Shown piece after piece: positions 1,858 to 64,000 of a stretch of DNA of 64,000 bases. The DNA comes from Tetradesmus obliquus (Eukaryota; Chlorophyta; Chlorophyceae; Sphaeropleales; Scenedesmaceae). A model generated the notes under the pieces. That model made no database searches. It was not told the DNA's origin and worked only from the letters and a program-made list of their open reading frames with translations. Where the stretch lies: positions 5,563,001 to 5,627,000 of the forward strand of contig CP126195.1 of NCBI GenBank assembly GCA_030272155.1, in the 5' to 3' direction. Within the stretch, counting starts at the first letter, position 1. Every line of letters begins with the position of its first letter. The translations under genes were made by a program, and so were the position numbers.

Positions 1858-1874
1858 CTTGCCACCCCCCTCTG

Positions 1875-1920
<46 letters not shown>

Positions 1921-1950
1921 GGGCTTCTCCTGGCCCTCAAGCCCCCGGCA
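1858..1950 (-). repeat. Tandem copy of the 3' end of the EVE-domain gene
   Basis: Read on the minus strand, this repeats the end of the EVE gene: GLEGQE, an Ala run encoded by GCA repeats, then EGGGKRS. It lies just downstream of the gene's own stop at 1967-1969. The copy then diverges and lacks the KGKKSS-stop ending, so it is a partial tandem duplicate of the terminal coding sequence and not a second gene. Confidence 0.8.
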
Positions 1951-1966
1951 CAAACTGCCTCTCCCG

Positions 1967-2006
1967 CTAGCTGCTCTTCTTCCCTTTGCTGCGCTTGCCG
2001 CCCCCC

Positions 2007-2041
<35 letters not shown>

Positions 2042-4288
2042 GCCCTCCTGGCCCTCTAGCCCCAGCACAAACTGCCACTCCTGCTGCGTCACCAGCTGCA
2101 CACTCAGCCGGGGCCTGTTGAACAGAGCCATGCCGGTTAGGCTGCCCTCCTTGTGGTTCTTGAGCTCTTCGAGTGTTATCTGCCTGCTCAGCTTCCGCAC
2201 CAGCTGGAAATCAACCTGAAAGAGATCAAAACACATGCAACCGAGCTACATTGAAAACAATCGACCACATTGACCGCACCAGCAATGGGTGCATTACGCA
2301 GCAGAGCAGCAGCAGTGATATGCGGTGGCAGCATGGGCTACCATTGAGGCCGCTGCTCACAAGAGCTCTGGTGATACAGCCGCCAGAGGGCACTGCCGCT
2401 CGCAGCTGGTATGTCCAGCTTCTTTGCATTGCATGGCTCGTGCTGTGAACAGGGGCCGGGCTGCACATCTACTCACAAACACTCAACATGCTGGTGAAGG
2501 ACATGTGCAGCTGAAGGACCTCAGGCACACACCACTGCGCACCTGCCACCACTTTGGGTTGTCTCTGCTGCTGCAAGCATCATAGTATTGGCTTGCAGGG
2601 TCGAAGGCGGTCACGTCTGGGTAGGCCTCGCGCACCACCTGGGCAGCACGTAGCAACATGCACAGCATGCAACAGCAGGCACAACATGCAGCAACAGGGT
2701 GGCAGCGTCGGAGCAGCACTGAGCACTTGCTTGACTGCAGAACACGTGTGGCGTGCCTCGCGTTTTCACTCCAGCAGCATGAAACGGGAATGATCAGGTG
2801 TTCAGCCAGCCAACATGCTCTTGTTTTGGCCTCACCTTGACGATGCCAACAATGCCCGGCACCTTGCAGCTGCTGTGGTAAAAGAACGCAAGGTCGCCCA
2901 CCCGCATGCTGCGCATGTTGTTGCGCGCCTGCGCGTTGCGCACCCCTGGTTGATACACATACAGCAGCCGGTGGTGTGGCAGCAGGTCAGGCAAGCGCTT
3001 TCAGTGCCGGGCGCAGAGGATAAATGTACTGCTGGACAGCTGCGCTGCAGAGTGCTGGCGCCAGCGCTGGCTAAACAATATGCAGCATGCTGCAGCCGCA
3101 GCACCAGCACAAAAAAATTGCGTCAAAACAGGTGTGCAATGTCCCATCCATCGCTGTGGGTGCGTCACTGCCCGCGGCTGTGCAAAGAAACCACTGCACC
3201 GTACAGTGCGTGCTGCAGCTGTTGCTGCTGCCGCCCCTGCTGCTGCTGCCGCCACTGACAGCAAAAGTGCTGCCATCACTGGTGATGTTCCTGCTGCTGC
3301 AACCCTGTTTGTGCTAACGCAGCCACTGCTGCTTCTGCATTCCACAAACAGGAGCACTGGTTGTAAGGCTGCTGCTGCTGCTGCTGCCGGTGCTGCTGCT
3401 GCCAGCTCACCGTCCCAACCCTCTGTTTGCTTGGGCCGTGCTTCCAGTTGGTCAATCGAGAATGCATCGGGCTCTGATTTGACCAGAAAGAACTGCAGGA
3501 GCACAGATATTCAAACTTGAATCAAGTGATGCAGCAAACAGCAGGCACTGCAGAAGTGAAAGTTTGGCTGTGTTGGCATCAGCTGCAACAGAGCTGGTAT
3601 AGACAAAGTGACACAGCAAACGTCTTGCACACGCTGCAGTGAGCAACAAAGTGTTTCCGCTTTGTAATACATGAAATGACAGTGCTTGAAAGGAGAGCTG
3701 GAACAACAGTTTTGAGGGCCGCCTTTATGTAGGCTCTAATGCAAATCCTGCAATGTGTGGCGAGCAATGCCCAGGCTGCTACAAATGCTTGTCCTGCTGC
3801 GCACGCACCTGTTGCACGGGGGCATCAGATGTCAGCGCATCTGCTGTTGCTGCTGCTGTGCTGGGAGCTGCTGCTGCTGCTGCTGCTGTTCCCTTCTTCC
3901 TTCCAGGCTTCTTTGCCGCTGCCTTTGCCTGCGCTGCCGCACCTGGCTTATCCGCTGCTGCAGCTGGCTTCTTAGCTGCTGCTGCGTCTGTCTGAGCAGG
4001 TGCTGCCTGCTCTGCTGGCTCAGTCTGCTGCTTCAATTCCTTTTTGACCCTCTGACGCTTGCTTGCAAGAGGCTGCTGTTGGCTGCTGTCTGCTGTGCCT
4101 GCACATTCTGCCGCTCCCGCTGCTGTTGCCTAGCATGCAGAAAGCCCGCCACTTGTTACTGGTTTAGCTGAGGTAGGTCAGAGATGGTTCTGGCACGAGC
4201 TCAAAAGCAGACTTGGCACTTGATCAGTGTCAGCAGCTGCAGTGCTGTTGTAACAGTGCAACCTGCTCACCCGAGCCCTACGCCCCAT
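1967..4288 (-). CDS. EVE-domain protein (THYN1/thymocyte nuclear protein 1-like)
   Basis: The EVE fold belongs to the PUA superfamily and is thought to bind modified DNA or RNA; plant and animal members are nuclear. Exons: 4271-4288 (MGRRAR), 3809-4129, 3411-3492, 2836-2945, 2543-2638, 1967-2215. All splice phases agree and sum to 876 nt, 291 aa. Exon 2 is a Lys/Ala-rich N-terminal extension with the nuclear-localisation-like run SKRQRVKKE and an AT-hook-like PGRKKG. The EVE domain starts with FFLVKSEPDAFSIDQL, runs across the WDG|VRNAQARNNMRSMRVGD junction and FFYHSSCKVPGIVGIVKV, and ends near QEWQFVLGLEGQE. The C-terminus is an Ala run plus KRSKGKKSS. The family assignment is strong from these motifs. 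The first exon is only 6 codons and was chosen because it has an ATG, a GTGAGC donor and the right phase, so it is the least certain part. Here EVE is the protein domain, unrelated to viruses. Confidence 0.85.
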
Positions 4289-6661
4289 GCTGATGCAGCC
4301 GCTCCGCCACAGTCGCTGCCTGTATGCTAAAGCGACTGTTTGGCGTGCGAACAGGGTAATGGTGGCAATGGTTGCGTTGTGATCACCAGGAGCAACGCAC
4401 AGACAGGCAAAACGACCAGCCAGCTTCGCGCTCATGCAACGTGCAACAAGAACATCAATCACTGCTTTGAAAAGGCCTTCAACGTAAACAAAAGCCGCGT
4501 GCTGCAGATGCTGTGTCATTGCAAACGTAGGGTCTGATTCCCCAACCCTGAATTCAAATTACACGCCAAAGAACCCGCATGCCAGCAGCGTCAGAATCGC
4601 GTCAACAGCTGGGTTAACGCACTTGCAGCAAATGCTACACGTACGCAGCATGCATTACCCTTTTGGCTGATGACACTGGGGAGGGCAGCAGCAAAGCTAC
4701 AGCAGCTGTCAACAGCAGTCAACATGGGGGGATCTTTTATGGGGTCTGAGGCGGCCACAGCAGAACAGGGGTAGACAGTGATGCGTCGTGCCACAGCTCA
4801 GACTTGCATCCGATGAACAGTTTTGTCACGTGCATGTGCACTGCAGTTAAGAGCAGTCCCTTGGTCTGAGCCCCTGTGCATGTTTACGTATGTTCAACAG
4901 TACCATACATATACCCCACATTCTGCTTGTTCTGCGCTACCTGTTGGCTTGTTGAGGAGGTTGCTTTTGCAGCAGCTACTCTGCCACTGTTTTTGTGATG
5001 ATGAACGCATGCTTTCCTGGCATCCACATCTGGCCCTACACACCTGCGTAGCGCACCGTTTGGCTCCGGCTGTACTAGCTTTGCGTTGTTTGCTTATCAC
5101 CCATGCAGAAGTCGGTTCCGGTTTGTGTCGAGCCCTGTGCAACCTTTTGCAGCGGCTACTAGGTAGTACTGGCACCGCGCTGTCACTGACTTGGCATGCA
5201 TGCCAAGTTTCGCATGGCTTCCTGCGGTGCGGCCGAGCTTGACAGTCAGCGGTTTGGAGGCTTTACACTGCAGTTTTGGGCACCATCCACCTGTCGTCGC
5301 ACTGCTCTGCCTTCTAGGCATTGCACCATTTTTGCTCTGATCCACGGGGTAGCTGGCTGCTGGCTGCATCATGCAGCCCTTTGACAGGCACGCGTGCCTA
5401 TCAGCCATACGACTGGACTAATGTTTGCTTGTCATATGAGCCGAGTTTGTTGAGCTGCCAGCATATTGCAGACGGAACTGCATGCCTGCAGGTCACCTGC
5501 ACCATGCAGGTCGCGTTTTCGCCACCTCCTTGTATTTCCATTGTAATTCATCCCAGCCAACAAATGGACAAGTCGTGTGCATCACTGCGACCATAGGAGC
5601 ACTGATAAACAGTTGGCGAGCAGGGTTTTACCAGAGTGCGGCAACTTGCGTTGAACGCGCCACCTCCTACTCACTATGGTGATGTTACTGACAGCTTTGC
5701 AGTGGTTGCTAACGCACATCACTGTATAAATAATTGCAGGAAAGACAACACAGCTTGCTGATTGCTTCACCTTGCAAGCCTTGAGAGCTGCCCAGCGTGC
5801 ACTGCAGGGGCAGAGGCAAAGTGTGTTACCTGCAGTGCTACACACAATCGACTGCTGCAGCACGCATTGAACAACAGCCAGCAGCTTGCACATAAAATAA
5901 CAAATACACATGCAATGCACGACAGTGTCTGCCAAGAGCTGCAGCGCACTGATGCCACAACTTCCTGAGTGGATCAAACACGAAAGCCCGTGGAAAAGGA
6001 TCCTTCCAGTGCAGCCAGCAATGCCAACGCTTGCAATGCTACCAACATCACTAGCAGCTACGGTGGCGCGTGCAGTACCCTTCACACAAGATTTCTGGCG
6101 GCGCTTTACTTGTACACAACGGCTCCAGCAGCACATCACATCAGCATACATGCTGTGCAGGGTGGGCTGTATGCCCATCCTCTGACACACATAAGGCAGT
6201 GCAGCATGCACCTTGCAAGTAGCCTTCACCAAGCTACCTATGTTACAACATGACAACACAGGTCATACACACCGGATACACATCATACTCTATCATACAC
6301 TATCGTACAGCAACACAGCATCATACACTAATTCTAACCATCAAAAAACAACCAAACGTCACATAATCCAACACATACACCTCCACATCATAGAGGCAGC
6401 ATGTCGCCCAAGATTCACAATGCTGCAGCCCAGTGTTGGGAAGTTCAAGAAACAACCAAGCCAACCATTGTTTGGAAAGATTTTGCCATACTGCCAAGCC
6501 AACCCCAATCGCAGCAAGCACGGAGTTTGAGGCATGTGATGAAGCACTGCAAGCTGTCCCAAGGCATGTTCCTGATGAAGCTGCAGCATAAGTGATGTGC
6601 TTCGTACTCGCTAGTGCTGCTGCTGCCACCGGCCCTCACAGCCGCTGTGTTTCCTGCACAG
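4289..6661. other. Intergenic, no gene recognised
   Basis: No conserved coding or RNA signal was found over about 2.4 kb. It must contain the promoter of the EVE gene and the 3' flank of the mTERF gene. A short AT-rich tract around 6250-6375 is made of loose repeats of ATCATACACTA. Confidence 0.5.
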
Positions 6662-8742
6662 TCATTGCACACTCATCATCAGCCACTGCAAAGTGTCAGA
6701 CGCCTCTTCGCTGCTGCTGCTGCCGCCATCGCAAGCGCCAGCTAGCTCGCCGACGCAATCGTCTCCAACCCGCTGCTGCTGCTGCTGCTGCTGCTGCCAG
6801 CGCTGGCTGCCCACAGGTGGCAGCCCATACAGCCCCAGGTACTGGAACTTGCGGATGTGGCGCCTGAAGTCACGCCCAAAGATGCGCGGGAACTCCCAAA
6901 CCTGCAGCAGGCACAGCAGGCACACAGCTCACATTGCAGGGACAAGCAAGTGACACGGCAGAAACCAACGTAATGTTGGCACAACTTTGTTGGTCCTTGC
7001 AGCCCCCGCAGTTTCATGGGCTGCACTGCCCAATGCAACCACATAAGCAAGTGCAGCACATACTACTCAGCATTGCTTGAAGGTGCGCAGCTGTGGATGA
7101 CCAGCGTATTTCGGTATCCTGGCTTTGTATAGAACTCGTCATTTTATATACTAAGTGACGGAGGCGGCACTCTGGCACGCACCAGCAGCCGAATGTCTTG
7201 TGCGCTGCAGCCCATGCTGCTGAGGTGGCTCAGCACGGGGCAGATGTCCCGCTCCAGCTGCTTGGCCAGCAGGTGCGGGTAGTGGCGCACGATACGGCCG
7301 CGGATGTGGCAGTCCTGCAGGCAAAGTGTCATGGGCAGCACATCTACAGTTTGGGATGTGGCAGTCCTGCAGGCAAAGTGTCATGGGCAGAAAAACTACA
7401 GGTTGGGATGTGGCAGTTCTGCAGGCAAAGTGTCATGGGCAGCAGATACACAGGTAGGGATGCGGCAGTCCTGCAGGTATGTGGCAGTCCTGTAGGCAAG
7501 CAGGCAGGGCAGTGGTGGGCTGGGCGAGGGCGATGGCAGGCAACACACTGGCAGGATGCTGAAGTATGGCAGCAGGGTGGTTGAACAGAGGCATGCAGTG
7601 GCAGCACGCGTGGCAGGCAGCAGGGCGGTGGCAGGGCTGTGTTGGGCAGCTGCAGTATGGCACATGCGTGTGTCGGTCCTGCAGGCAGAAAGCTGGCAGG
7701 CAGCTGCTGGGTGATTTGAAACAGCTGAGGGAGCCTACCACACTAGAATCCACACTGCTGCTGCTGCTGTGCTAGCTGGCGCACGTTAGGCAGGACATGC
7801 GTGCTGGCCCCATGCAATGCAGCATATTTGAATTACCCCCAGCGCCATGTTGCTTGCGGCCGCACACCTGGTAGCCGAGGTGCTTGAAGAAGAGCAGCGT
7901 CCTGCCAGACTCGTAGATGCTGCAGTGCGCAAACAGCTCAGGGCAGGCCAGCAGCAGCCTGCTGATGTCGGGCGCTGCCAGGCCATACGCTTGCAGGAAC
8001 TCCACCTGGATCAGCAGCAGCAGCAAGTGCGCATCCTGTGAATGGACGTCAGTGCAACTGCATTTAAACATCACCCAGGCGTGCGTTGCCGCAGCTGAGG
8101 GACAGTTGCCTTTCATTGTGTGTGTTGCAACACATCAAGCCTGCCCGATATGATGCTTTAACAGGCGGATACAGGCCCCTGCAAGCTCCCCTCGCCGCAC
8201 TGCATAACTCACTCAGGCGCGGCTGCAAGAAGATCAGCCACAGGTCAAGGCTCTCAAGTGGTTTTCAGGGCGCTGCTGCTACTCACCCACGCCTGCAGTG
8301 GGCTGGGGTGCTGCTGCACCTGCAGCACCTCAGGGTGCCTCTGCAGCAGCTCATGTAGCTGCTGTGCGTCCTGCACAAGCTCCTGCAGCAGCGACAGCTC
8401 CGCTGCACAGGCATGCTGCGCCTGCTGTGCCACGTCATCACTGCACGCCGGGTCAGCGCCAGACAGGCCTGCAGCTGACGGCAGTAGCAGCCTGCTGCTG
8501 CGTTGACTAAAGCTATTGCTGCCTGCCTGTAGTGCCAAAGGCCTTGCTAGGCCTGTGGTGGTCTGCCTGCCCATTGCCGCTGATGTGGCAATTGCATGCC
8601 ATGCAGTGTGATGGTGCTGCCTGATCGCTGCTGCTGAATTGATGGCTGGTCTGGGCAGGTGTGACAGCAGACTTTGCTGCTTTTGAACCCCATGTGGAGC
8701 ATCATGAAGATGCAGCTTGCCGTGCAGGCTGCCCAGATGCAT
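6662..8742 (-). CDS. mTERF-family protein, likely organelle-targeted
   Basis: mTERF proteins are helical-repeat nucleic-acid binders that act on transcription, termination and RNA processing in mitochondria and plastids; algal MOC1 is one. Exons: 8287-8742, 7868-8005, 7183-7314, 6662-6901. All junctions are phase 0, giving 321 aa. The family is shown by tandem helix motifs: EFLQAYGLAAPDISRLLLAC then P(E)LF, FFKHLGYQ, RHYPHLLAKQLERDICPVLS and HLSSMGCSAQDIRLL, followed by VWEFPRIFGRDFRRHIRKF at the end. The first exon carries a Ser/Arg/Ala-rich region (from MGRQTTTGLARP, residue 57) typical of an organelle presequence; either the ATG at 8742 or the one at 8574 could be the start. The C-terminus has a Gln run. 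It is divergent from the kinase gene, whose start lies 466 bp away. The subtype and target organelle are not resolved. Confidence 0.8.
7302..7500 (-). repeat. 52-bp array carrying copies of the mTERF exon 3 acceptor edge
   Basis: Exon 3 of the mTERF gene begins at 7314 (minus strand), after the acceptor CTGCAG, with GACTGCCACATCC. The same edge plus about 35 bp of intron recurs upstream in the intron, with copies starting at about 7366, 7418, 7470 and 7489. The period is 52 bp for the first three. The first three copies keep CTGCAG; the last has CTACAG. The exon portion in each copy is only about 13 nt before it runs into the next repeat. Confidence 0.85.
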
Positions 8743-9208: not shown

Positions 9209-9559
9209 ATGTCCTGGTCCGACCCACTACATGGCAACCCGCGCTACGAGAGCATTAGGACCCTGAGCACAGGAACTCGCAGCTTCGTTCAGCTGGCTGT
9301 TGATCGCTCCACTGGCGAGCAGGTGGCGATCAAGTTCACTCAGAGAGGTGGGTCATTCTATTGAGCACTGGCAGCAGGATGGTGCATGGCTGTGTAGTTG
9401 GTTCGAGCACACTGCTTCAGCTTCAGGGAAGGTGTCACCATTGCTGCAAATCAAGATTGGACTGGGATGGATGGTTTGTACAGATCCCGTAGCAGCAGCC
9501 AAGCTGCAGCAGCCAAACCAAAGGCTGATAAGCAGCACAATGAAGCAGTGCTGCGGCAG

Positions 9560-9594
<35 letters not shown>

Positions 9595-12500
9595 CTGCTG
9601 AGCACATGGCTCTTGCTGTAATCAGCGTCTTCAGGCCTTTGCGCAATCGCTCAATGTAGAACTGCGCACAGTCTGCAATCGGTATGCATGCATCTTCTGC
9701 TACTGCTGTTCTAGAGCGTGCTGTGTTGGTGGGCGCACCGTCATCTGCTGAACTTGCTGCTGCTGCAACTGCTGCTGTTCCTGCAAGCAGGATGGGATGA
9801 CAACCAGATGAAGTACCTGCTGCGGGAGCTGCTCATTCATCAGGAGCTCAGTGCCTGCAGGTGCGGCACAGCAGATGCAAAGTGCCCAGACGTCACATCA
9901 GTACATGTTGCTGTCGTACCAACCTAGTGATATGTATCCCTAGCCTGCTTGCATGCAACTGATTGTAGCCACCAATACACGTCAACAGCACTAATATGGT
10001 ACAACAATCGCAGCGGTGTGGGACGCCTGATGTGTATGTCCGTATGGGAACTGCGGATGCAACAGCTGCGGGACGTTGTGTCACTCCCTGTCGAGACAAG
10101 CAGCTTCGCGCATCTCAGATCCTCGGTGCATTTCTGCTGCTGCTGCTGCTGCAGGCACCCCCACATTGTGGAGCTGCGCGACGTGTTCCTCACGCCGCTG
10201 CACCTGGCGGCTGTGTGCGAGTTTGTGGATGGCGAGGACCTGCAGCTGTTCCTGGCCAACACGGGAGGCAGGTGCGTGGCTATGTCGTGCAGGGGCATGG
10301 GCAGTGAACCTTAGGGTCGCGTGCATATGTGGTGCGTGCGTGCGGGCATGCATGCGCGGCGCATATGCGGCTGCGTACATGGTGCGCGCGTTGGTGTGCG
10401 TGCGCATGAGCCTGCATACGTGGTGCCGTGCGTGAGTATGCATGTGCGTGCGTCCGCGTTTGTGTGCGCGTACATGCGTGGTGTACACGTGGTGCCTGTG
10501 CGCGTTCATGTGCGCGCGCATGTGCGCGTGTGTTTGGGCTCACGAGTGCACGTTCATGCGTGCATGTGTGTGCGAGCATGCATGGTGCGTGTGTGCGGGC
10601 GTATGTGTATGCGCGCGAATGCGGGCAGGTATGCGCGCATCTGTGTGTGCATGTAAGCAGGTATTTCCGTGCGCAGAGTGTGCATCCGTGCATTTGTGTG
10701 CGTGCATGCGTGTGTGCGTGCATGCGTGTGTGCGTGCATGCGTGGTGCGCCTGTACAGCGCCTCGTGGGTTTGCGCGTGCATGTGCGTGGGGGGTGCATG
10801 AGAGTGCGTGTGGGGCGTGTGCGTGCATGTGTGTGTGCTTGTGCACGTGCGTGTGTGTGCGTGTGTGCATGCATGCGTGGTGCGCGCAAGTGTGCGTGTG
10901 TCGTGCGCGTGCGCGCGTGCGTGTGCGTGCATTTGTGTGCGCACGTGTGTGTGTGCGCTTGGTGCGCGCGTGCGGGTGCATGTGTGCGTGTGCGCTTGTG
11001 TGCGTCCATGTGTGCGCGTGCGCGCGCCTGTGTATGTGTGTGGTGTGGGTGTGCATGCATGCGTGGCGCGTGCGTGCGCGCGTGTGCGTATGTGCACCCG
11101 GTGTTTGTTCAGCTTACGCGTGTGCTCGTGTGCGCGTGCTTGTGCCCGCGTGCATGCATTTTTGTGTATGCTTGTGCGCGTGCATGTGTGTGCGCGCTGC
11201 ATCCTGTCTTGTCTGCAGCTGCAGCTGTGGCTGCGCATCACGGAGGCAGGTGCGCGGCACGCTGCACGTGTTGACTTGTTGTGCATTTCTTGCTCATTGC
11301 GGGCTACAGCGTGTCTGTCCTGCCACAGAGGTGCCACTGCACCTGCCACGCATTGCTCCTGTCACTTTTGGAAGACACTTGCAACAAACAAATACATCCT
11401 CCGCACTTGCATGGCGCAGGGTCTGGAGACGCTGGGCGCTTCCTCTTCCAGCAGCTAGTGCTGGCGTTGGACTGTGTGCACCTCTCTTGTAACGCAGCTG
11501 TAACACATTTGTGACACATTTGCAATTTGCAGAGTGTCCGAGGCGCTCCGACGTGCCCTGTACCAGCAGCGTGTGCTGGCTCTGGGAGCTCCTGCAACAC
11601 ATGTGCCAAAACAGTTGTAACGCATTCGTCACGCATTCGTGCTGCAGGGTGTCTGAGGCGCTGGGTCGCTTCCTGTTCCAGCAGCTGGTGCTGGCGCTGG
11701 ATTTCGTGCACCGGCGTGGCAAAGTGTGCCGCGGCGTGAAGCTTGCCAACACGCTGCTTGCTCTGGCGCCTGGGCAGCTGCCGCTGGTGAAGCTGGCCGA
11801 TTTCGGCTTCAGCAAGGACGTGGGCCAGCACGGCGCGCCACAGAGCCAGGTATGCTCAACTGTGTAACAACTTCTGGTTCTTGTTGTCGTTTTGGGGGGT
11901 GGCCGGGTTCCGGGGTGGGCGGTTTAAATTATTGTGAACACCTGCGAGGCATGCAGCATGCACACAAAGTGCCTGGGGTGGCAGGTGTGGGTGCGGCGTG
12001 CGTGTTTGAAGGCATGGTGTGCGGGCTGGGTTGTGTGTGATGGCTTGGGCAGCTGTCGTTCGTGAAGCTAGCCGACTTTGGCTTCAACAAAGATGTGGGC
12101 CAGCACGGCGCGCCGCAGAGCCAGGTATGCTCAACTGTGTGGTAACTTCTGTATTTGTTGTCGGATTTGGAAATGGCCGGTTTCCGGGGGTGGGAGGTTT
12201 GAATTACTTTGAACATCGGCGAGGCATGCAGCATGCACACAAAGTGCCTGGGGTGGCAGCTGTGGGTCGGCATGCGCTTTTGAAGGCATGATGCGTGGCG
12301 TGGGTTGTGTGTGATGGCTTGGGCGACGACGCGCCGCAGAGCGGGCAACATGCTGATCATGACTCGAGGCATGTGTTGCTGCTGCAATGTGTTCTGGGCC
12401 CCATATGCACAGCACGTCACGCAGTGCGTGCTCTGCTATCGCACCAAGCCACTGGCTCGGCACTACAGGTCAGCAGACCAAGACACCTGCGCGCCGCTCC

Positions 12501-15354
12501 GCCCGGCAATCCTTTGGTCATTTTGTTCGCGCTGTGAACCCAGCTGAACCCTGTTGCCTGGCGCTGTGCGCAGGTCGGCACTGCGCTGTTTGTGGCGCCA
12601 GAGGTCATGCACAACTTCAACAATGCAGCAATAAGACATGTCCCAAGAAGCAACACACTTGTGCTGCTGCCTGCAGGTCGGCACGGCGCTGTTTGTGGCG
12701 CCAGAGGTCATGCACAACTTCAACCATGCACCTTACGACGGCGCGGCAGTCGATGTGTGGGCGGCCGGCATCGTGCTCTTCATCCTGCTGTTTGGGAGGC
12801 ACCCTTTCTTGAGGCCGGAGGACAGCAGCCTGCCTGAGCAGCAGCAGATGCTGGCGCTGTTTACGCGCACGGCTGCCAGCCAGTTCTGTTTGCTGCCTGA
12901 GGAGGCGCTGGCCATCACGCCGGCCTGTGCAGACCTGCTGAGCCATGTGCTGCAGACAAACCCTGCAAGCAGGTGCGTTCAACTGTTGTTATGCTGTGTT
13001 AGCCGCCAGCCAGTTTCCGTTTGCTGCCTGAGGCTAGTTTGCGCACACCTGCTGAGTCATGTGCTGCTCACAAACCCTGCAGACAGGTGTGTCCGATAGT
13101 TCTAGGCCTATTTCCGCCAGCCAGTTCTGTTTGCAGCTTGAGGAGGTGCTGGCCATCACGCCGGCATGTGCAGACCTGCTGAGCCATGTGCTGCAGACCA
13201 ACCCGGCCAGCAGGTGCGTCGCGCAGAAAGAGGCTGACATGTTGTCGCTGCCACCATGTTGAGGTGTTCTCAACTTCCTGTTCTGCTCTGGTAATTTCAC
13301 TTCAACTTTGTGTCTGTTGTTAGGCTTTGTCAGCCGCCAGCCAGTTTTTTTATGCTTATGGTTCGTTGCTGCCTGAGGAGGCGCTGGCTATCACGCCGGG
13401 CTGTGCAGACCTGCTGAGTCATGTGCTGCAGACAAACCCAGGTATGACATGGCGCAGCTCCAGGCCCACCCCTGGTTGAAGCAGGGCCTGCCGCAGGGCC
13501 GCAACGCCGCGCTGTCAAACGATAATAACAAATAACGTGTTATTTGTGTGCGCAGGTATGACATGGCGCAGCTCCAGGCCCACCCCTGGTTGAAGCAGGG
13601 CCTGCCGCAGGGCCGCAACGCCGCGCTGTCAAACGATAATAACAAATAACGTGGTATTTGTGTGCGCAGGTATGACATGGCGCAGCTCCAGGCCCACCCC
13701 TGGTTGAAGCAGGGCCTGCCGCAGGGCCGCAACGCCGCGCTGTCAAACGATAGTAACAAATAACGTGTTATTTGTGTGCGCATGTATGACATGGCGCAGC
13801 TCCAGGCCCACCCCTGGTTGAAGCAGGGCCTGCCGCAGGGCCGCAAAGCTGCGCTGCCAAACGTCAACAACAAAATAACATGTTGTGTTTGCAAAGCCGC
13901 GCTACCAAACACTAACAGCAAATGACATGTTATTGTGTGTGCAGGTATGGCATGGCGCAGATTCAGGCGCACCCCTGGTTCAAGCAGGGCCTGCCGGAGG
14001 GAGCAGCAGCTATGAACGAGACCATCCTGGCTGACGTGGCAAGCAGGCCCATCAGCTACAAGCAGGCACCCGAGGTGCTGGCGGCTATGCTGCGGGTGAG
14101 TGAGGGTTAACGAGTGTGACAAGGCTTGGCGCATGGGGGGCGCTGCTGCGTGCTATGCCTACATTCAACATGGTGCTATAGCGTGCTGTGTTGCGTGGTT
14201 GTGCTGGAAGACGAAGGAGAGAACTGGTGGTATCTTGCTGGTAAGCGCAGCTGTTGCGTGCCGTGAATGAGACCATCTTGGCTGACGTGGCAAGCAGGCC
14301 CATCAGCTACAAGCAGGCACCCGAGGTGCTGGCGGCTATGCTGCGGGTGATGCGGTTGGATGGTGTGCGCATGGCTGCTGCTGCTGCTGCCGCGGCGGCA
14401 GCGACGGCGGCTGTGATGACAGAGGTGCTGCATGGCTCGTCATGCAAGCAGGCACAACCAAGTTCAACAAGGAGAGAGCGTGTTGTATGCTGTACAGCAA
14501 GATGTGTGAGGGCTGTCAGCATTATCCTTAAACAGTTATGCCGTTGCCTGCCTGTGCATCCTCCGGGAGCCAGTATCAAACAGTTAGTGTGAATTAGTAC
14601 CTGATCGTGAAGTTTGCGGAAGCTGTTGGCCTGCCCCCTACAAGCACAGCGATTGCAACAAGTGCCGTGTGCATGCTGTGCTGTCCTCTGCTCTACAGCT
14701 TGGCCAGCTGTTGTACCCGTCACTGCCTTCTCAGCTGTCTTTGCTGTTCGCCTCTGCCGCTCACGCAGCGTGCTGACTCCTGCTCCTGCTGCTCCCTGCC
14801 CTGCCGTGTACAGGCTGGCCAGATGTTGGACCCTTCACTGCTCGCGCAGCGCTTTGCGTCGTCAGCAGCAGCAGCAGCAGTGCCTGCCAGCTCAGGCGGC
14901 CGGGCCCTCTCAGGCGGCCCTGTCTCAGGAGGCACTGCTTCAGCCGGCAGCCACGGCATCGCACAGCAGCAGCAGCAGCAGGGCAGCTGGGGAGCGCCGC
15001 CGCCGCCACAGCAGCCGCAGCTGATGCGTGTGCTGCCGCACTGCACCAGCAGCAATGATAGGCGGCAGGAGGACTTGTACAACCAGCAGGAGCAGCAGTT
15101 GCTTGGGTTGGGTTCGCCATGCCCGCCTATTCTTGCAAGCTTGGATGAGTCGACATCTTCGTGTGGAGGTGGCATGTATGCACACCACATGGCACAGCAG
15201 CAGCAGCAGCAGCAGCAGCACCTCCTGCAGCAACAGCAGCAGCAGTACCTACAGCAGCAGCAGCAGCTGTCGCCACAGCTGTCGCCGCAACTGCAGCAGC
15301 AGCATGCTCAGCAGCAGCTCCAGCAGCAGCAACTGCAGCAGCAACAGCAACAAT

Positions 15355-48720: not shown

Positions 48721-51700
48721 TCAGTCGAAGATGCGCTCCCCTGTGGCAAACAGGTTCCAGATCACAGTACCCACCAGGTACAAAATGACAGCCACCCGCC
48801 ACACATCCGTCCAGGTGCCATGTGCCAGCAAATACCCAGTCGCCAGGCTGCCCAAAACCCCAGCCAGAACCCCGGCCGTGTTGCTAAGCCCCAGCAAAAC
48901 CCCGGCGTAACGCGGGCCGATGTCTTGGTGGTTCGAGTACAGCCCGCTTTGGCTGAAGGCGTCAAAGCCTTGCGCGCCCATCATGCACGCGACAGCAGCA
49001 GGCAGCGTGGATACATTCTGCAGCTGCGTCAGGCAGAATGCAGGGCCTAGGAAGCCTAGGGTTTGCATGATCTTGCGCACTGCTGTCACACTGGTGCCGC
49101 GCTGCACGAGTGTGTCTGCGATCCAGCCGCCCACGTTTGCTGAGATGGCCATCGTCATCCACGGCAGCACCGAAAAGATGCCCGACTTGAAGATGTCGCA
49201 GCCCAGCACCTGCAGCAGCAGCAGCAGCAGCAGCAGTGTAATTTGATTGAGATGGCCATAGTCATCCATAGCAGCACTAGAAAGATGCCTGACTTTGAAG
49301 ATGTCGCAGCCCAGCACCTGCAGCAGCAGCAGCAGCAGCAGCAGTGTGAGTTGGCTGAGATGGCCATGGTCATCCAGGGCAGCACTGAGAATATGCCGGA
49401 CTTGAAGATGTCACAGCCCAGCACCTGCAGCAGCAGCAGCAGCAGCAGTATGAGTTGGCTGAGATGGCCATGGTCATACACGGCAGCACCGAGAGGATGC
49501 CTGACTTGAAGATGTCGCAGCCAAGCACCTGCAGCAGCAGCAGCAGCAGCAGCAGCCGCTGCTTACGCCACATACAAGGAGAGCCGCACAGGCGGTATGT
49601 AAACTGCATGCATTCTGCCGCGGCCCAGGGCGGCTGCCGCAAGCATGACGCAACAGTGTTGAAGTGACAGGCCTGACCGCCCACCTGGTTGGCGTAGGTG
49701 GGCATCCACGTCAACAGGCATGCAGGCGCCATCTTGCAGGCGTCATCTAATCATAGGCTTTGAGAATGAATGACGAAAGAGTCGCACCGCCCCACCTGGT
49801 TGTAGTAGGTGGGCATCCAGGTCAGCAGTATGAATGTGCCCCAGTTGTGGCAGAAGTGGCACACGATGATGGCCCACACCTCCTTGCGGCTCAGCAGCTT
49901 GCCCCAGGGGATGCTGCGAGTGGACTTGCCAGACACGCTGGTGTTGGCAAGGATGTACGCCTGCAGCAGTGACAAGCATCCACCATGAGAAATAAAGCCA
50001 AGACACTAGGAATACAGCCAGATTCTGGCTAACTTGCCAGACACGCTGGTGTTGGCAAGGATGTAGGCCTGCAAGAATGATTACAGTGGTGGCAGGGCTT
50101 GTAAGGCAGTGCAGGCAGTGCAGTGAGCATGTCGAATCCTTTATCTTTCCAGTGATTGCTTGCCCGACACTGGTGTTGGCCAGGATGTATGCCTGCACAC
50201 AAGAAAGAGGCTGAATGCGAGTATTGCTGCATTTCACTTACACATACAGCTGGCCAGCTTCAGTTGCTGACTTGCTCGACACGCTCGTGGTGCCCAAAAC
50301 ACACCAGAAACTGCACACACTCCTAGATACCAGCAGCAGGCTGCAACATGCGACACCTTGAGCACTGAAATCCAACAAAAGTCCCATAAACCCTCGCCAA
50401 ACCCACAAAACCCTCCAGAAATGCATGAAAACCCTCGCACCTTCTCTGCGTTGCTGCACAGCGGGTCCTCCGAGGGTGTGCTCGCCGCCTTGCTGCTCCA
50501 CAGCCCGTACCACAGCACGCCCAGGCTGCCAAAGCCATAAAACACGCTGGGCCAGCCCAAGGCCCCAATGAGCCCGGGGCTGAGGGCGAGGCCCGCGATG
50601 CTGCCGATGAACATGCCGCTGTACACCAGTGACAGCGAGCGGCTGCGCTCCGCAACCGGCACCCAGCTGCAGGCATACACCACATGGGGCACAGCAGGCG
50701 GGCATAAGCAGGGGTGAGATGCATGATGCATGCGGAAGTGTGCATTTGAGTGACAGCCAGCGGCGGCACTCCGCGACCAGCACCCAGCTGCAGGCATTCC
50801 AATGCCCATCAGCTGCTGTACTACATGCTGCAGCTGCCGACATCACGCAGCATGTCATACATAACAGCCGCCGCTCCCTCACCGGCTGAGCAGGTTCTTC
50901 ATAGCTGGCAACACCCTCCCCAATGCCCATCAGCGCACGCGCAGCCAGCAGCCAACACGGTCTGACCCACAAACACTGTTACTACTTGAACCCTGACCGG
51001 CTGAGCAGGTTGTTCATGGCCGGCATGGCCACGCCCTCTCCAATGCCCATCAGCTGCTGTACTGCACACTGCAGCCGCCCAACACTCTGCACATGCAACC
51101 TAACAAAGCACAAAACCACTGCCGCTCACCGGCTGAACATGTTGTTCATGGCCGGCATAGCCACACCCTCCCCGATGCCCATCAGCGCACGCGCAGCCAG
51201 CAGCTGCACATTGTCTGAATTCACAAACACTGTTACTACTACTCAAACCCTCACCGGCTGAGCAGGTTGTTCATGGCCGGCATGGCCACGCCCTCTCCAA
51301 TGCCTATCAGCTGCTCCACGCTGCAGCTGCCATAAGCAACATGTTCCTTGCAACAACGTAACAAACATAACAGCCACCGCTCCCTCACCGGCTGAGCAGG
51401 TTGTTCATAGCCGGCATAGCAACACCCTCCCCGATGCCCATCAGCGCACGCGCAGCCAGCAGCTGCACACACACACACACACTGTCTGAACTCACAAACA
51501 CTGTTACTACTACTCAAACCCTCACCGGCTGAGCAGGTTGTTCATGGCCGGCATGGCAACACCTTCTCCAATGCCTATCAGCTGCTGTACTACACGCTGC
51601 AGCCGCCCAACACTCTTCACATGTAATCCAACAAACCACAAAACCACTGCTGCTCACCGGCTGAGCAGGTTGTTCATGGCCGGCATGGCCACGCCCTCCC

Positions 51701-53051
51701 CAATGCCCATCAGGGCACGCGAAGCCAGCAGCGCCGGCAGCCCCATCTGCGCTGCAATCGGCGTGAAGGCAGTAGCCATGCTCCACCACACCACGCCAAG
51801 CCCCAGCACCAGCTTGCCCCCAAAGCGGTCTGCCCAGATGCCGCCAAGCACCTGAGTCAGCAGGTAGCCCCTGCAATGGCAGCAGCAGCAGCAGCAGCAG
51901 TGGTGAACACATGCCTAGCACCAGCTTGCAACCAAAACGGTCTGTCCAGATGGCACCCAGCACCTGAGTCAGCAGGTAGCCCCTGCAGCAGCAGCAGAGC
52001 AGCAGCAGCAGCAGGAGTAAGGACATGCCTATCACCAGCTTGCTGCCAGAAGAAGCTGCTCTGCACCAGGCCAATGCTGCATTGCACACCACACCACGCT
52101 ACAGCACCCCCGAAACAGCAATTCGCTGCAAACCCCACTGTGATCAGTCGCATCAGTTCACCAGAAGAAGCTGCACTGCACCAGGCCCACCGTCTGCATG
52201 GACCAGACGTACTGCATGCGGCAACCAATACATATAAAGCAGAAGAAACAAACACCCCTAGCCTGCTGCTCACTCACCACTCACCAGAAGAAGCTGCTTT
52301 GCACCAGCCCCACCGTCTGCGTGGACCAGCCGTACTGCACTCCGCACCCAATACAAGCACCCAAAGAAACAAGACAGACACTTGAGTCCAAAACTTGCTG
52401 CTCACCAGAAGAAGCTGCACTGCGCCAGGCCCGCCGTCTGCATGGACCAGCCGTACTGCAAGCGGCAACGATTCAAAAAACCAAAAGACACAAACACCCC
52501 CAACCTGCTGCTCACTCACCAGAAGAAGCTGCTTTGCACCAGCCCCACCGTCTGCGTGGACCAGCCGTACTGCGCTGCCATGGGCAGCACCGCGATGCTC
52601 ATGTTCACGCGGTCCATGTTGCACAGCATGAACGCCACAAAGCACAGCAGCACCATCGTCCAGCGCCGCCGCCAGCCAGAGATGCCCTCCAGGAACTGCA
52701 GCAGCAGCACACGAAAAGGACACAATTAGACAGTGTGGCACAGGCGAATGTATAGCAAGCAGATGCAGCCAGCCTGGCCCTGCAGCCAGCCAGGACCTGC
52801 AGCAGCACAGGCAGAAACAAAATGATGACAGGCATGTTGGCACATGGGGGCGTATGACGAGCAGATGCGGCACAGGCGTGCAGGCACACAGATGAACTGG
52901 GCAGCACGGCGCGACAGGTGCAGCAGATGTCGAGGAATAACTGTTGCGCCGCAACATTGCCAACCGGCCGGGAGGCACGGCAGCGAGTGTTGCGCTGCAA
53001 GCGCGGCTGCACTGACACGTAACTGCCTGCATTAGGGCCCCAGTCCTGCAT
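48721..53051 (-). CDS. PHT4: PHT4/ANTR-type plastid anion (phosphate) transporter, MFS/SLC17
   Basis: PHT4 proteins carry phosphate (some ascorbate) across chloroplast and other membranes. Exons: 52890-53051, 52520-52695, 51658-51870, 50441-50666, 49796-49960, 48721-49209; phases match and give 476 aa, the usual family size. Diagnostic stretches closely follow plant ANTR1/PHT4;1: FMLCNMDRVNMSIAVLPMAA, YGWSTQTVGLVQSSFFWGYL, GIGEGVAMPAMNNLLSRWVP, VAERSRSLSLVYSGMFIGSI, HFCHNWGTFILLTWMPTYYN, WMTMAISANVGGWIADTLVQ and FSQSGLYSNHQDIGPRYAGV. Twelve transmembrane segments are expected. Exon 1 (MQDWGPNAGSYVSVQPRLQR...) is Arg/Ser/Ala-rich like a transit peptide, but its donor (GTGTGC) is the weakest point. 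The gene carries the most exon-edge copies in the window, about 18. Confidence 0.92.
49210..49531 (-). repeat. Three copies of the PHT4 last-exon acceptor edge
   Basis: The true last exon starts at 49209 (VLGCDIFKSGIFSVLPWMTM). Copies start at 49317, 49424 and 49528 (minus strand). Each keeps CTGCTGCTGCAG and about 80 nt of exon, then runs into a CTG tract. Spacings are 108, 107 and 104 bp. The frame stays open across each copy. Confidence 0.9.
49684..49735 (-). repeat. Copy of the PHT4 exon 5 donor edge
   Basis: LLTWMPTYANQ plus CAG|GTGGGC repeats the end of exon 5 (LLTWMPTYYNQ, CAG|GTGGGG at 49796), about 110 bp downstream in the transcript. Confidence 0.85.
50030..50300 (-). repeat. Copies of the PHT4 exon 5 acceptor edge
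   Basis: True exon 5 starts at 49960 with AYILANTSVSGKS. Copies starting near 50069 and 50192 encode the same AYILANTSVS with CAG acceptors; a third remnant (TTGCTCGACACGCTCGTGG) lies near 50272. Spacing is about 110-123 bp. Confidence 0.85.
50740..50800 (-). repeat. Copy of the PHT4 exon 4 acceptor edge
   Basis: CTGCAG then the coding for WVLVAECRRWLSLKC repeats the start of exon 4 (WVPVAERSRSLSLVY, start 50666) 123 bp upstream in the intron. Confidence 0.85.
50875..51560 (-). repeat. Six copies of the PHT4 exon 3 donor edge
   Basis: True exon 3 ends MGIGEGVAMPAMNNLLSR with CG|GTGAGC at 51658. Six copies of this edge follow in the intron, with donors near 51524, 51388, 51255, 51129, 50994 and 50881 (spacing about 113-136 bp). 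All but one keep CGGTGAG; the exon part varies (GEGVAMPAMNNLLSR, GEGVAMPAMNNMFSR, GEGVASYEEPAQ). Nearly every copy has a usable donor, so many alternative 5' splice sites are offered in tandem. Confidence 0.9.
51871..52055 (-). repeat. Copies of the PHT4 exon 3 acceptor edge
   Basis: True exon 3 starts at 51870 (GYLLTQVLGGIWADRFGGKL). A copy starts near 51986 (GYLLTQVLGAIWTDRFGCKL) and runs into a CAG tract. A further remnant (KLVIGMSLLLL) lies near 52020-52045. Confidence 0.85.
52045..52470 (-). repeat. Four copies of the PHT4 exon 2 donor edge
   Basis: True exon 2 ends YGWSTQTVGLVQSSFFW with CTG|GTGAGT at 52520. Copies with donors near 52404, 52281 and 52159 keep TTCTTCTG|GTGA; a fourth near 52047 keeps only the exon edge. 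Spacing is 112-123 bp. Several keep the coding nearly intact (YGWSTQTVGLVQSSFFW near 52281). Confidence 0.9.
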
Positions 53052-57059: not shown

Positions 57060-57190
57060 TCACTCTGCATGGTGATGTGGCGCATATGCCTTGATCTCCA
57101 CAGTGCCTAGCAGCTCCTGCTGCTTGCCATCCGCACTAATGCGCAGCTGCTGCCGCTGCTTCTCCTTCAGCTGCTGCAGCTCCGCCACAC

Positions 57191-57225
<35 letters not shown>

Positions 57226-57856: not shown

Positions 57857-57905
<49 letters not shown>

Positions 57906-60943: not shown

Positions 60944-63900
60944 TTATGCCTCAGGCTGCTGCTGCTGTGGCTGCGCCTCGAGGGCTGTGGGGCTGCAGGG
61001 TGCCTTGTCGTCACCCTGCGGCACCCCTGGCCTGTATGACAGCGTGCGCGCATCGTAGCGTCCCTTGCGTTCAAGCTGCAGCAACAGCAGCAGCAGCAGC
61101 AGTAGCAGCAGATGCTGTTTTCATATGTATGTTAAGCATGTATGGACATGTGACAGCAGTTGTGTTTGCGCCACTCACCATGCGCTTGGGTGCCTGCAGC
61201 TCAAGCCTCGTCAGCTTTAGAGTGAATCTATGTCAACTTATGGCTGTGACACAGCGGGCAAGAACTTCACTGCTTCTTTCACAGTGCGCCGCTCACCGCG
61301 CGCTTGGGCACCTCCAGCACTAGCCCTGCCTGAGTCAGCAGCAAAACTGCCAGCAGCATCAGCCTGCTCAGGCTGCCATGCAGCCACTGGCATCATCCTG
61401 GCAGGATCCATCAAGATCGCACATTAAGACGCCTTTTGCTGATGCTCCAACACATATACAGTTTGTTTGCGGAGCAATTACAGGTAGAACGAGACAAGGT
61501 GCGGCTCACCGTGCGCTTGGGCACCTCCAGCACCAGCCCGGGTAGTGCCATCAAGCCCAGCAGCACGCAGATGGGTATCAGCCAGAGCAGGCTGTCATGC
61601 AGACCAGTGCTTTAGCATGCTTTAACATAATGAATAATAGCATCATAGCAGTATGACTCCCTCTCCAAATGTTCAATGGGCATCTAAACATTTTGTGGAT
61701 AATTGTTGTTGAGTACAGGAAACTACGATACTGTGGCTCACCGTGCGCTTGGGCACCTCCAGCACCAGGCCTGCCAGTGCCATCAGGCCCAGCAGCACGC
61801 AGATGGGCGTCAGCCAGGCCACCAGCGCCGCATTCTTCAGGTCGTGCATCAGCAGCACGCCCAGGAAGCAGTTGACAATGCCTGCAGGAGACATGCACAT
61901 CAGCATGTGCGGGCATTTGAACATACTAATCCACGTGCAGAGAGAGATACAGGAGCTCTGAGGACGAGAGCTAGTGAGTGACACTAACGTGAACGGATGA
62001 TGCGTGTAACACATGCTGCAGCTCTGTTTTGTATCCCACAGTGTTACTGGCTGTAAGCATGTTTGACAGCCTTACCAACGATCGGTCATGGCACCAGACT
62101 GCCCCCCTGCTGATGCCTACTGTCCTGAAGCGCACTCTAACGCAGCTGCAGACAGCATGCATCAGCTGCCAAACCCCACATCTTTTCACCAAGGATCATC
62201 GCCACCCAGCCCAAACTGTAGTGCCCCACCTGCCACATCCTTCTACCCTGGTACCTAGTAGGATGTATCACTAGCCTGCTTGCATGCAACATATTTTTAT
62301 ATCTCTGTTAGCAACGCTCACTGAGGATCATTGCCACCCAGCCCAAAGAGTGGTGCCCCACCCGCCACATCCTTCTACACTAACCTAGTAGGATGCATTA
62401 CTAGCCTGCTTGCATGCAACACATTGTAAATTATTGTATCTGTCAACAACTCTCACCAAGGATCATCGCCACCCAGCCCAAACTGTAGTGCCCCACCCGC
62501 CACATAGGCAGCGCAGAATGTCCGACGCCAGGGTTCATAAAACCGCCAGCCAGCTGCAGCACTGACACAGCAACAGCTGCAACGCCCAGCCCAAAATGCG
62601 GCGTGTACAGCTTGTGGATGCCGGCTCCAGTGCCGTTTTCACTGAAGAAGAGCACCATGGCTAGGCCAAAGCTAGCAATGACACAAAGCACCGCCAGCAG
62701 CTGCAGCAGCTGGTGCAGGTGGCGCCACGTGTTGGGCAGGCGGCCAGCCTGTTGGGTTGCAGAGCAGCACGCCGCAGGAATTGCAAAACTCAACCACGCA
62801 ATTCCAATGTTCAAGATCTCAGGTGCTGCTTGACAGTATGTCCATGCGGGAAACAGGGTGCGTGCTTTCAGGGCGCAATTTGCTGTGATGCATTCAACAT
62901 GCCGTGACAGCCTATAACGCTGCTGCCCACTAAGCCACAAAGCTGCTTCCATTTCAGCAGTGACACCTTCTCTACGCATTTCAGCAGTGACACCTTCTCT
63001 ACGCATTTCAGCAGTGACACCTTCTCTACGCATTTCAACAGTGACACCTTCTCTACGCATTTCAGCAGTGACACCTTCTCTACGCATTTCAGCAGTGACA
63101 CCTTCTCTACGCAGCAGCAACACGTGCAGTCACAGCAGCTGCCGAATGCACTGTAGTTGTTGCACGACCAGTTTACAAAATGCCCGCACCTCGCTGTCCC
63201 CAAAGAGCCACATCTGAGTGCAGCTGCCACATCAGAGTGCAGCTGCCACATCAGAATCAGCTTGCAGCTGTCACATCAATGCAAGGTCTTAGTCAGCATC
63301 GCAGCTGCTTTGGTTGTTGATTGCCCGCACCTCGCTGTCTCCAAAGAGCCACTTGTGGCGAGTTCAGCTGCCACATCTGAATCAGCAGCGCAACTGCCAC
63401 ATCAAAGGAAAGTCTCAACAACAGTGCAGCTGCCCCATCCGTGCAGTTGCCGCATCCGAATGATATTTTCTCTTTTGGCTCTCACCTCGCTGTCTCCAAA
63501 GAGCCACTTGTGGCGTGCCAGCAGCATGCCGGCCGGCATCAGTGCGCAGAAGGCCACCAGCATCAGCACCCCGTGCGCAATCTGGGCCGCTGAGTTGCCG
63601 GAGGAACTGGACACATCAGAGTACTTGCCTGCAGGCAGGGTTTATGCAGTTCATCACAGGGTTTTACATGTTAGCAGAAGGCCACCAGCATCAGCGGCCC
63701 ATGCGCGATCTGGGCTGCTGAGTTGCCGGAGGAGCCGGAAACATTAGAGTACTTGCCTGCAGCCAGGGTTCACACAGTTCAACACAGGGTTTTAGAGGTT
63801 AGCAGAAGGCTACCAGCATCAGCAATTTTGACATAGAGATGCATGCTTGCAGCAGGCCACCAGCATCAGCGCCCCGTGCGCGATCTGTGCTGACGAATTG

Positions 63901-64000
63901 CCGGAGGAGCTGGACACGTCAGAGTACTTGCCTCCGGCAGGTTATGACATACCCTCCTCATGGTGGAGTAGAGTACACAGGCAAGGAACTCCTTCTCCTT
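60944..64000 (-). CDS. Cytochrome b561-domain protein (C-terminal part; continues beyond the window)
   Basis: Cytochrome b561 proteins move electrons across membranes with two b hemes; plant and algal ones often follow a DOMON domain. Exons: 63953-64000 (partial, tentative), 63486-63628, 62457-62748, 61742-61881, 60944-61075; phases match. The four heme-binding His are visible, one per central helix: AHGVLMLVAFCALMPAG, WRHLHQLLQLLAVL, LYTPHFGLGVAAVAVSV and WRVGHYSLGWVAMILG. They are followed by IVNCFLGVLL and the last helix ending LVLEVPKRT. The terminal exon encodes LERKGRYDARTLSYRP and ends QPQQQQPEA. KYSDVSSSSGNSAAQI just before the first helix fits the linker after a DOMON domain, which would lie outside the window. 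Every internal exon has tandem edge copies in its introns. Confidence 0.85.
61170..61595 (-). repeat. Three copies of the b561 fourth-exon donor edge
   Basis: True exon ends LVLEVPKRT with ACG|GTGAGC at 61742. Copies lie near 61509 (long; includes LTPICVLLGLMALPGLVLEV), 61294 and 61178 (short, degenerate: GTGAGTGG donor). CTG runs follow the last copy. Confidence 0.85.
62165..62410 (-). repeat. Two copies of the b561 third-exon donor edge
   Basis: True exon ends VGHYSLGWVAMILG with CTTG|GTGAGA at 62457. Copies with edges near 62319 and 62189 keep about 45 nt of exon and 60 nt of a shared intron (AGTAGGATG...CTAGCCTGCTTGCATGCAAC in antisense order). Spacing is 138 and 130 bp. The donors are changed to GTGAGC and GTGAAA. 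Confidence 0.85.
62951..63112 (-). repeat. Six-copy 27-bp repeat, open as a 9-residue peptide repeat
   Basis: The unit ATTTCAGCAGTGACACCTTC plus TCTACGC occurs six times with one base change. On the minus strand it reads (MRREGVTAE)n and is open, in frame, into the b561 exon at 62748. I place it in the intron because a good acceptor (CCAACAG) precedes the conserved exon, but retention would add an in-frame charged repeat. Confidence 0.85.
63179..63360 (-). repeat. Two copies of the b561 second-exon donor edge
   Basis: True exon ends ARHKWLFGDSE with GAG|GTGAGA at 63486. Copies near 63324 (KWLFGDSE) and 63187 (MWLFGDSE) repeat the last 8 codons; both have GAG|GTGCGG instead. Spacing is about 137-162 bp. 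Confidence 0.85.
63660..63935 (-). repeat. Two copies of the b561 second-exon acceptor edge
   Basis: True exon starts at 63628 (KYSDVSSSSGNSAAQIAHGV). Copies start near 63758 (KYSNVSGSSGNSAAQIAHGP) and 63930 (KYSDVSSSSGNSSAQIAHGA). Spacing is about 130 and 172 bp. The first keeps CTGCAG; the second has CCGGAG. Confidence 0.85.

Follow-up and report, generated by a model that had tools for sequence, protein, structure and literature searches.

Internal duplications of genes are said to be ubiquitous and able to wake cryptic splice sites, according to the parts known to us of the work of Gao and Lynch in 2009, and Hellsten 2011 is reportedly the study cited for intron gain by tandem duplication across splice sites. 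We consider here a related pattern in the green alga Tetradesmus obliquus (a genome of 104.66 Mb in 17 contigs): direct repeats of exon ends, together with their splice consensus, found in the adjacent introns of a 64-kb stretch at C5:5563001-5627000 (hereafter the window) and of other loci of the same genome. The origin of introns and of new splice sites is an old open question, and this genome offers many datable events together. Introns have been described to arise by tandem duplication across splice sites (PMC4974935 and PMC3443670, accessible parts), and in the potato RdRp case an intron-exon structure was duplicated (PMC4974935, same parts). A first-pass annotation of the window had held that no described system matches its repeats. 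This was too broad, splice-site-spanning tandem duplication being already on record in those two sources. For copies bounded by the splice junction, no report was recognisable from titles and the beginnings of abstracts among the papers listed, subscription papers being mostly uncovered. Judged in the same way, the papers listed held nothing on the exon-edge copy pattern in green algae.

Like the internal duplications attributed to Gao and Lynch, the repeats described here are common duplications within genes; the bias of their ends to the junction, their spacing of ~125 bp and their strong bias to exon edges are not among the known parts of that work. With intron gain by tandem duplication, as far as the accessible part of PMC4974935 describes it, they share a local, direct and intragenic duplication that carries exon and splice signals and whose extra copy is spliced out. 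In that account, however, a newly formed intron receives its opposite splice sites from the duplicated segment (the AGGT model), whereas here donor edges copy donor edges and acceptor edges copy acceptor edges, beside an existing predicted intron, and often stop at the splice consensus. Introner elements (PMC9860276, accessible part) also change intron content en masse, but introners share sequence between loci; the spacers found here do not (with one exception) and it is the host exon that is copied. Exonic sequence is likewise repeated within the gene in tandem exon duplication and mutually exclusive exons (PMC9013439, accessible part), but a whole exon with both of its splice sites was rarely copied here (39 of 58 arrays contained one boundary and 5 several).

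The sample comprised the window and 30 loci of 10 kb, i.e. 31 sequences and 364 kb; loci were taken at fixed coordinates, with the window and its two neighbours in addition, and do not form a random sample. All exon edges, introns and genes are ab initio predictions from a gene finder built for this analysis (a frame-dependent Markov model with splice matrices), which was self-trained on these 31 sequences (364 kb) after their arrays had been collapsed. It learned CAG/GTGAG-like donors and TGCAG/G-like acceptors, and returned 67 genes with 592 introns, hence ~1,184 edges; when the arrays were left uncollapsed, it called copied edges as exons. The window has a GC content of ~55% and plentiful CAG/CTG repeats. 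Seven of the eight gene identities proposed for it were upheld by a Pfam family or superfamily match of the hand-trimmed protein (mTERF, EVE, Pkinase, SBP, MFS_1, TLC and b561), while the hand-trimmed 'membrane protein' had no match in Pfam.

Low-complexity sequence was masked and edge copies were detected without it; repeats below 28-30 nt were excluded from the counts. An edge was scored as copied when the copy lay on the intron side of the boundary, at an offset of 50-1000 and at least 80% identity, when it contained no less than 20 nt of exon and when the exon continued beyond the repeat; copies on the exon side and very short ones are therefore outside the 113 edges reported below. The self-BLAST counts leave out loci L016 and L017 (long satellite-like or tandem-gene arrays) and window positions 10300-11250, 20000-21500 and 62900-63250, or very nearly these. 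L016 carries, at 1-6039, a 279-bp array of 14.2 copies and a 345-bp array of 5.5 copies, which occupy 59% of the 10-kb locus; L017, judging by the gene models, holds a gene repeated in tandem every ~4.28 kb.

At lenient settings, Tandem Repeats Finder (TRF) returned 18 arrays with a period of at least 40 bp in the window (~50 units, 6.4 kb, 10% of its length) and at least one such array in 18 of 20 sampled 10-kb loci. The window units inspected by eye were exon ends with their splice sites. Since arrays are present in most sampled loci and the window units read as exon ends, the phenomenon is real and not specific to the window. A copy in the own intron was found for 113 predicted exon edges (65 donor and 48 acceptor edges; 19 in the window and 94 elsewhere), distributed over 22 of the 29 sequences examined, so that roughly one predicted edge in ten (113 of ~1,184) bears a recognisable self-copy; that both sides are copied had been read correctly from the window. 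The claim that all eight of its genes carry copies stood in part: 19 window edges were retained, but some genes (e.g. mTERF/EVE) are absent from this strict list, their repeats being weaker, CTG-rich or below the criteria. Extrapolation of the 113 edges in 364 kb, from loci that are not random, gives an estimate of ~32,000 copied exon edges genome-wide.

Copy identity ranged from 80 to 100%. Spacing was below 200 bp for 58 of 80 first-order pairs, with a mean of 125 ± 26 bp, in agreement with the periods of 'mostly 104-140 bp' first noted in the window. By self-BLAST, direct-repeat offsets peaked at 110-120 bp and rose a second time near 220-250; this histogram retains the excluded loci and stretches named above, and its pair listing omits nearly the same ones. 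At 90% identity or more, 96 pairs were direct and 5 inverted, inverted pairs being rare at short range. Independently of the gene models used here, a nearby partial repeat of an exon end was seen in two of three whole-genome family searches: with PF03572, at C16:3539956-3540186 (profile positions 40-118) and C16:3539688-3539798 (82-118, one stop), and with PF00009, at C16:1898062-1898232 (profile positions 62-118) and 1898302-1898436 (78-122). The whole-genome search with PF00270 showed no nearby exon-end repeat of that kind. Two DEAD-box matches that lie 3.6 kb from each other (C2:8541825-8541992 and 8545417-8545584) and have the same score likely reflect a recent tandem gene duplication.

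The repeats focus on exon edges, as the first-pass annotation had proposed. Among 143 independent local direct-repeat loci (low-complexity pairs excluded), 107 lay at an edge, 14 included some boundary, 8 were intron-only, 6 lay outside genes, 5 were exon-only and 3 were mixed. The letters behind this count were 183,520 intronic, 114,114 exonic and 46,366 intergenic: intron-only loci were just 8 of 143 although introns are the larger target. The first 1,135 nt of L004 hold a 191-bp array of 6 copies (90% matches) that is wholly labelled intron. Donor and acceptor sides behaved alike. For contiguous arrays the picture is less clear-cut. With units placed randomly along the collapsed gene models, 33.6% hold one boundary, 28.5% lie in intron only, 17.2% lie in exon only, 15.3% are intergenic and 5.4% hold several boundaries. 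The 58 TRF arrays left after removal of short-period and overlapping ones (the two L016 arrays being retained) numbered 39, 12, 1, 1 and 5 in these classes; more than one boundary was thus included in 5 of 58, and at a few loci (e.g. L021:2212/2267) the copy may extend over an entire exon. Array 13439-13884 of the window was tallied as intron-only, yet is an exon edge judging by its sequence. The exon share per unit had a median of 54 nt against 53 under the null (Kolmogorov-Smirnov p = 0.23; p = 0.06 when expressed as share of the period). Because the exon share matches the null and ~34% of units would contain a boundary by chance, boundary content alone, which had been offered as evidence in the first reading of the window and shows no more than a moderate enrichment, is weak evidence; for contiguous arrays it was dropped as a stand-alone argument.

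It is the position of the repeat ends that singles out the splice junction. In the 86 pairs with at least 90% identity, 52 of 111 near-boundary endpoints fell on the first 0-8 nt of the intron, whereas 200 shifted controls placed 8.0 there on average and never more than 16; at 75% identity the same test gave 91 of 306 against a control mean of 22 (the endpoint and spacer analyses omit pairs longer than their own offset, i.e. contiguous arrays). Over the 113 edges, the sequence shared with the farthest copy had a median of 54 nt of exon (range 22-155) and 12 nt of intron. The shared intron was at most 12 nt long for 57 of them (31 donor, 26 acceptor) and for 34 of the 48 edges with at least 90% identity. 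Copies had all been described as spanning the splice site with adjoining intron; this is too simple, since in those 57 cases only the edge and its consensus are shared. Directly beyond the copy end, ungapped identity was 0.22-0.29, i.e. at background (34 pairs), and mismatches showed no trend along the copied piece (termed T) up to the last exon base. No target-site-like motif was visible next to the copies in base counts of the 12-nt flanks. When plain tandem duplication followed by neutral decay was simulated and screened with similar BLAST settings (with a stricter E-value for shorter sequences), a shared intron of at most 12 nt was obtained in 7-28% of cases, mostly lower at higher identity; the gradual decay of long duplications was rejected on this basis.

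The arrays themselves tend to begin and end with a copied piece, often in the form X(YX)n, where X is the copied piece and Y the spacer: in 22 of the 39 one-boundary arrays, the surplus over whole units differed from the exon share by between -5 and +20 nt, whereas 2000 permutations gave 7.4 such arrays on average and at most 15. At L018:2627-2959, in a gene which a PDB search indicated to be Snu114-like, three X and two Y are 100% identical and the outermost flank differs.

Mismatch between real edge and copy was 6-8% at the first two codon positions, 13-17% at the third and, in the larger classes, 11-13% in alignable intron, a pattern that fits one selected and one free copy. Pairs sharing T only were no more diverged than pairs sharing intron as well. 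The GT or AG was retained in 96 of 113 copies (85%) versus 99 expected at 6.5% decay per site, with an alignment that favours intact sites, and some copies carry frame-shifting gaps. Such near-neutral decay, splice dinucleotides included, suggests that the copies are probably not functional decoys.

The interpretation to which we give, tentatively, somewhat less than half of our confidence is that of a recurrent local duplication process at exon edges in which the copied piece is fixed at the splice junction on its intron side. On the ab initio models, T comprises 22-155 nt from the end of the exon, joined in half of the cases by no more than the 0-12 intron nucleotides at the splice consensus, and it reappears in the adjacent intron, in direct orientation and ~125 bp away. 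It may be copied as a single piece, with the intron-side end set by the splice junction and the exon-side end free, and subsequent slippage among copies of T could yield the X(YX)n arrays. The least certain step is that the fixed end might reflect splicing on the nascent transcript, for instance through copying from, or nicking opposite, an RNA whose intron portion is held by the U1 small nuclear ribonucleoprotein or by U2AF. Introns would thereby lengthen and gain spare splice sites, which would be tolerated since the site attached to the complete exon prevails over them. Sharp ends, the preference for edges, the evenness of the mismatch and the similar ages of the pairs are all explained by junction-bounded copying. 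We are more doubtful of the stronger proposal that DNA copying reads the splice junction, so that exon ends cut at the 5' or 3' consensus are written into the adjacent intron at a distance of ~125 bp, by extrapolation tens of thousands of times per genome. If true, splicing on nascent RNA would be coupled to DNA change, with a steady supply of intron growth and spare splice sites; were the copies indeed cut at splice junctions, RNA processing would leave marks in DNA, which would be new.

Several observations sit badly with junction-bounded copying. More than 12 nt of intron are common to 56 of the 113 edges and their farthest copy. Synonymous differences (337 versus 197 expected at random) exceed the level for one free copy, an excess that mis-called exons among the copies could possibly cause. 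Among 64 T-only pairs, 27% exceeded the 95th percentile of the controls in flank similarity and 16% the 99th; this similarity, often weak and shifted (e.g. L008:1477, L011:5537), points toward an older and longer duplication. The outer acceptor flanks contained 60.0% pyrimidine (24 flanks), close to the 60.1% of clean acceptors (100) and above the 51.1% of deep intron (66; p = 0.0002 versus deep), and the outer donor flanks 46.3% (31), versus 48.0% for clean donors and 53.1% for deep intron (p = 0.007 versus deep); plain insertion of T into an intron does not predict such splice-site-like flanks. In L005, a copy terminates 4 nt after a stop codon instead of at a splice site, and the end of an array in L021 comes 9 nt after one. 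Residual similarity, flank composition and stop-codon ends speak for a longer history than a single clean insertion would have. To these must be added that we know of no enzyme or pathway able to perform junction-bounded copying, and that the edges come from a purpose-built gene finder and are predicted from DNA, not RNA-based.

Some of these points speak for exon-anchored homogenisation, a possibility which we rate as unlikely but take seriously. Here the duplications would be ordinary tandem ones that span the boundary; the selected exon would convert the exon part of the copies while the intron parts diverge and no longer take part in the exchange, so that the edge would mark the limit of constraint and not a cut. 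The similarity that persists in the flanks of 16-27% of the T-only pairs, the true splice-site composition of outer flanks, the copies ending just beyond a stop codon and the alike behaviour of donors and acceptors are all in its favour. In simulations with exchange, moreover, a shared intron of at most 12 nt was obtained in 18-100% of surviving loci at ages of at least 0.4, and intron-only repeats were gone at the oldest ages. Young simulated duplications were, however, about equally frequent in introns and at edges, and a ratio of 107 loci to 8 would therefore require almost every duplication to have arisen long ago; survivors were few at low exchange rates, and sharp ends appeared mainly in old survivors. 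Homogenisation alone does not produce the thirteenfold excess of edge repeats over intron-only ones. It is also hard to reconcile with the absence of a mismatch trend up to the very end of T and with the similar divergence of T-only and full pairs, and exchange over 30-60 nt is demanding. As the cause of the sharp edge, we place junction-bounded copying ahead of this main rival by a modest margin. If exchange with the selected exon does keep the copies alike, the genome would display an unusually clear case of concerted evolution shaped by selection over mere tens of bases. Under either reading, gene finders working without RNA annotate false exons here, as was seen with the present one.

A different history, which we consider improbable, would begin in the exon: a new sequence Y is inserted near the exon end, T is duplicated in the process and the outer copy is the former site. 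Such events would survive only with a working splice site in the duplicate, because the insert is then spliced out. This fits the splice consensus being nearly always just included and the outer flanks resembling true sites, and small tandem duplications are known among the products of repair (PMC8355091, accessible part). But the requirement sets a lower and no upper bound on the shared intron, and sharing nevertheless stays near the minimum while the exon share extends over 22-155 nt; events internal to introns would be expected to be common and are rare (8 of 143 loci). Nor was an outside source of Y apparent. Within the 364-kb sample (matches within 3 kb not counted), spacers shared no family across loci and gave only simple-repeat or same-locus matches, nearly all being unique; the single exception is one repeat-like L021 spacer that matches L005 and L025. 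Two regions compared with the whole genome gave, besides themselves, only short matches, mostly to CTG-rich stretches. An introner-like or mobile spacer was rejected for want of a spacer family in that sample.

Ordinary random tandem duplication, filtered by purifying selection (exon-internal and whole-exon events being lost) and followed by neutral decay, is very improbable. Chance placement does reproduce the median exon share (54 versus 53 nt) and gives one boundary in 33.6% and intron only in 28.5% of cases; the observed 39 versus 12 arrays and 107 versus 8 loci depart from this, and breakpoints that should be independent of splice sites peak next to them, an outcome which the decay simulation also disfavours. 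Functional splicing decoys, or alternative exon starts under selection, are still less credible: GT or AG is kept in 85% of copies, outer flanks are like true sites and the synonymous excess points toward conservation, yet decay is about neutral at the splice dinucleotides and at the first two codon positions and copies contain frame-shifting gaps, and decoys were dismissed on account of this decay. An assembly or polishing artefact can be set aside almost entirely, given identities of 80-100% with a coding-like mismatch pattern and 22 of 29 affected sequences.

The features of the window illustrate these forms. In the kinase gene (Pkinase; forward strand), an acceptor-side edge copy at 11416-11482 corresponds to the real edge at 11644-11712 (84%, 4 nt of shared intron), and the end of the DFG exon is copied in tandem on the donor side, intron included, at 11768-12324 (period 275; 86% over 284 columns). 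Further along the same strand, the acceptor-side copy at 12570-12627 matches the real edge at 12673-12730 at 97% (54 nt of exon and 4 nt of intron). The real kinase exon end at 12875-12978 (donor 12972/12973) is the source of two copies: that at 13116-13219 is 93% identical over 98 nt of exon and 6 nt of intron (GTGCGT), and that at 13366-13439 is 96% identical to 12890-12963 and abuts the first acceptor-side copy of the following array. This array, at 13439-13884, has 3.9 copies of 114 bp (TRF 96%); its real edge is at 13942-14001, with which the first copy shares 57 nt of exon and 3 nt of intron at 90%. A donor-edge pair follows, still on the forward strand, at 14013-14099 and 14264-14350 (98% over 87 nt), and which member is used is uncertain.

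At 13366-13498, the donor-edge copy thus meets the acceptor-edge copy of the next exon nearly as in spliced RNA, with ~7 nt missing; this junction is either a relic of an earlier state without the intron or a fusion that came about by chance. Other copies of spliced exon-exon junctions were sought: there were 373 same-locus hits, of which the 25 inspected were largely low-complexity sequence or mis-called exons, and 4,516 hits in other loci. As the inspected hits were mostly spurious, the kinase case stands alone.

Elsewhere on the forward strand, the SBP gene has an acceptor-side copy at 21836-21885 of the real edge 22086-22135 (92%; 48 nt of exon and 2 nt of intron). The membrane-protein gene has an acceptor-side tandem pair at 29029-29299 (83% over 150 columns) and a real donor-side edge at 29376-29453 with copies at 29562-29594, 29664-29741 and 29792-29824 (88-97%; 4 nt of intron). 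A donor-side array of 2.6 copies of 238 bp that includes intron lies at 30488-31102 (84%).

On the reverse strand, the mTERF/EVE region contains a 52-bp array of 3.4 copies at an exon edge (7302-7477; TRF 89%, and 90% between 7302-7373 and 7406-7477), which is outside the strict set of 19 edges. The PHT4-like gene, on the same strand, is rich in such structures. It has an acceptor-side array of 4 copies of 104 bp at 49135-49555 (TRF 86%), and a real acceptor-side edge at 49924-49965 with copies at 50032-50073 (98%) and 50159-50197 (88%), which share 36-37 nt of exon and 5 nt of intron (TGCAG) and have different flanks. It also has two donor-side arrays: one of 3.6 copies of 271 bp at 50798-51732 (TRF 81%) and one of 3.5 copies of 121 bp at 52158-52573, whose outermost copies share 54 nt of exon and 4 nt of intron at 91%. 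Within 50628-50797, an acceptor-side edge (50628-50676) is followed by its copy (50749-50797; 90%, 39 nt of exon and 10 nt of intron). The last reverse-strand features are a donor-side pair at 61500-61585 and 61732-61817 (91%; 76 nt of exon and 10 nt of intron) and, near the start of the b561 region, a 135-bp array of 2.4 copies at 62186-62505 (TRF 84%; outermost copies 98% identical over 53 nt). A 128-bp array at 63546-63946, with no strand assigned, lies outside genes in the final model (TRF 88%; self-BLAST 85-89%).

Three repeats of shorter unit were also noted in the window. A 14-bp minisatellite of ~101 copies (20051-21457; 98% matches) has several open frames and is called as a repeat protein by the gene finder. 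The b561 gene region contains, at 62950-63113, 6.1 copies of a 27-bp repeat (98% matches), and a short array at 934-1060 is made of units of CTGTAAACCCTGTACAGGCC.

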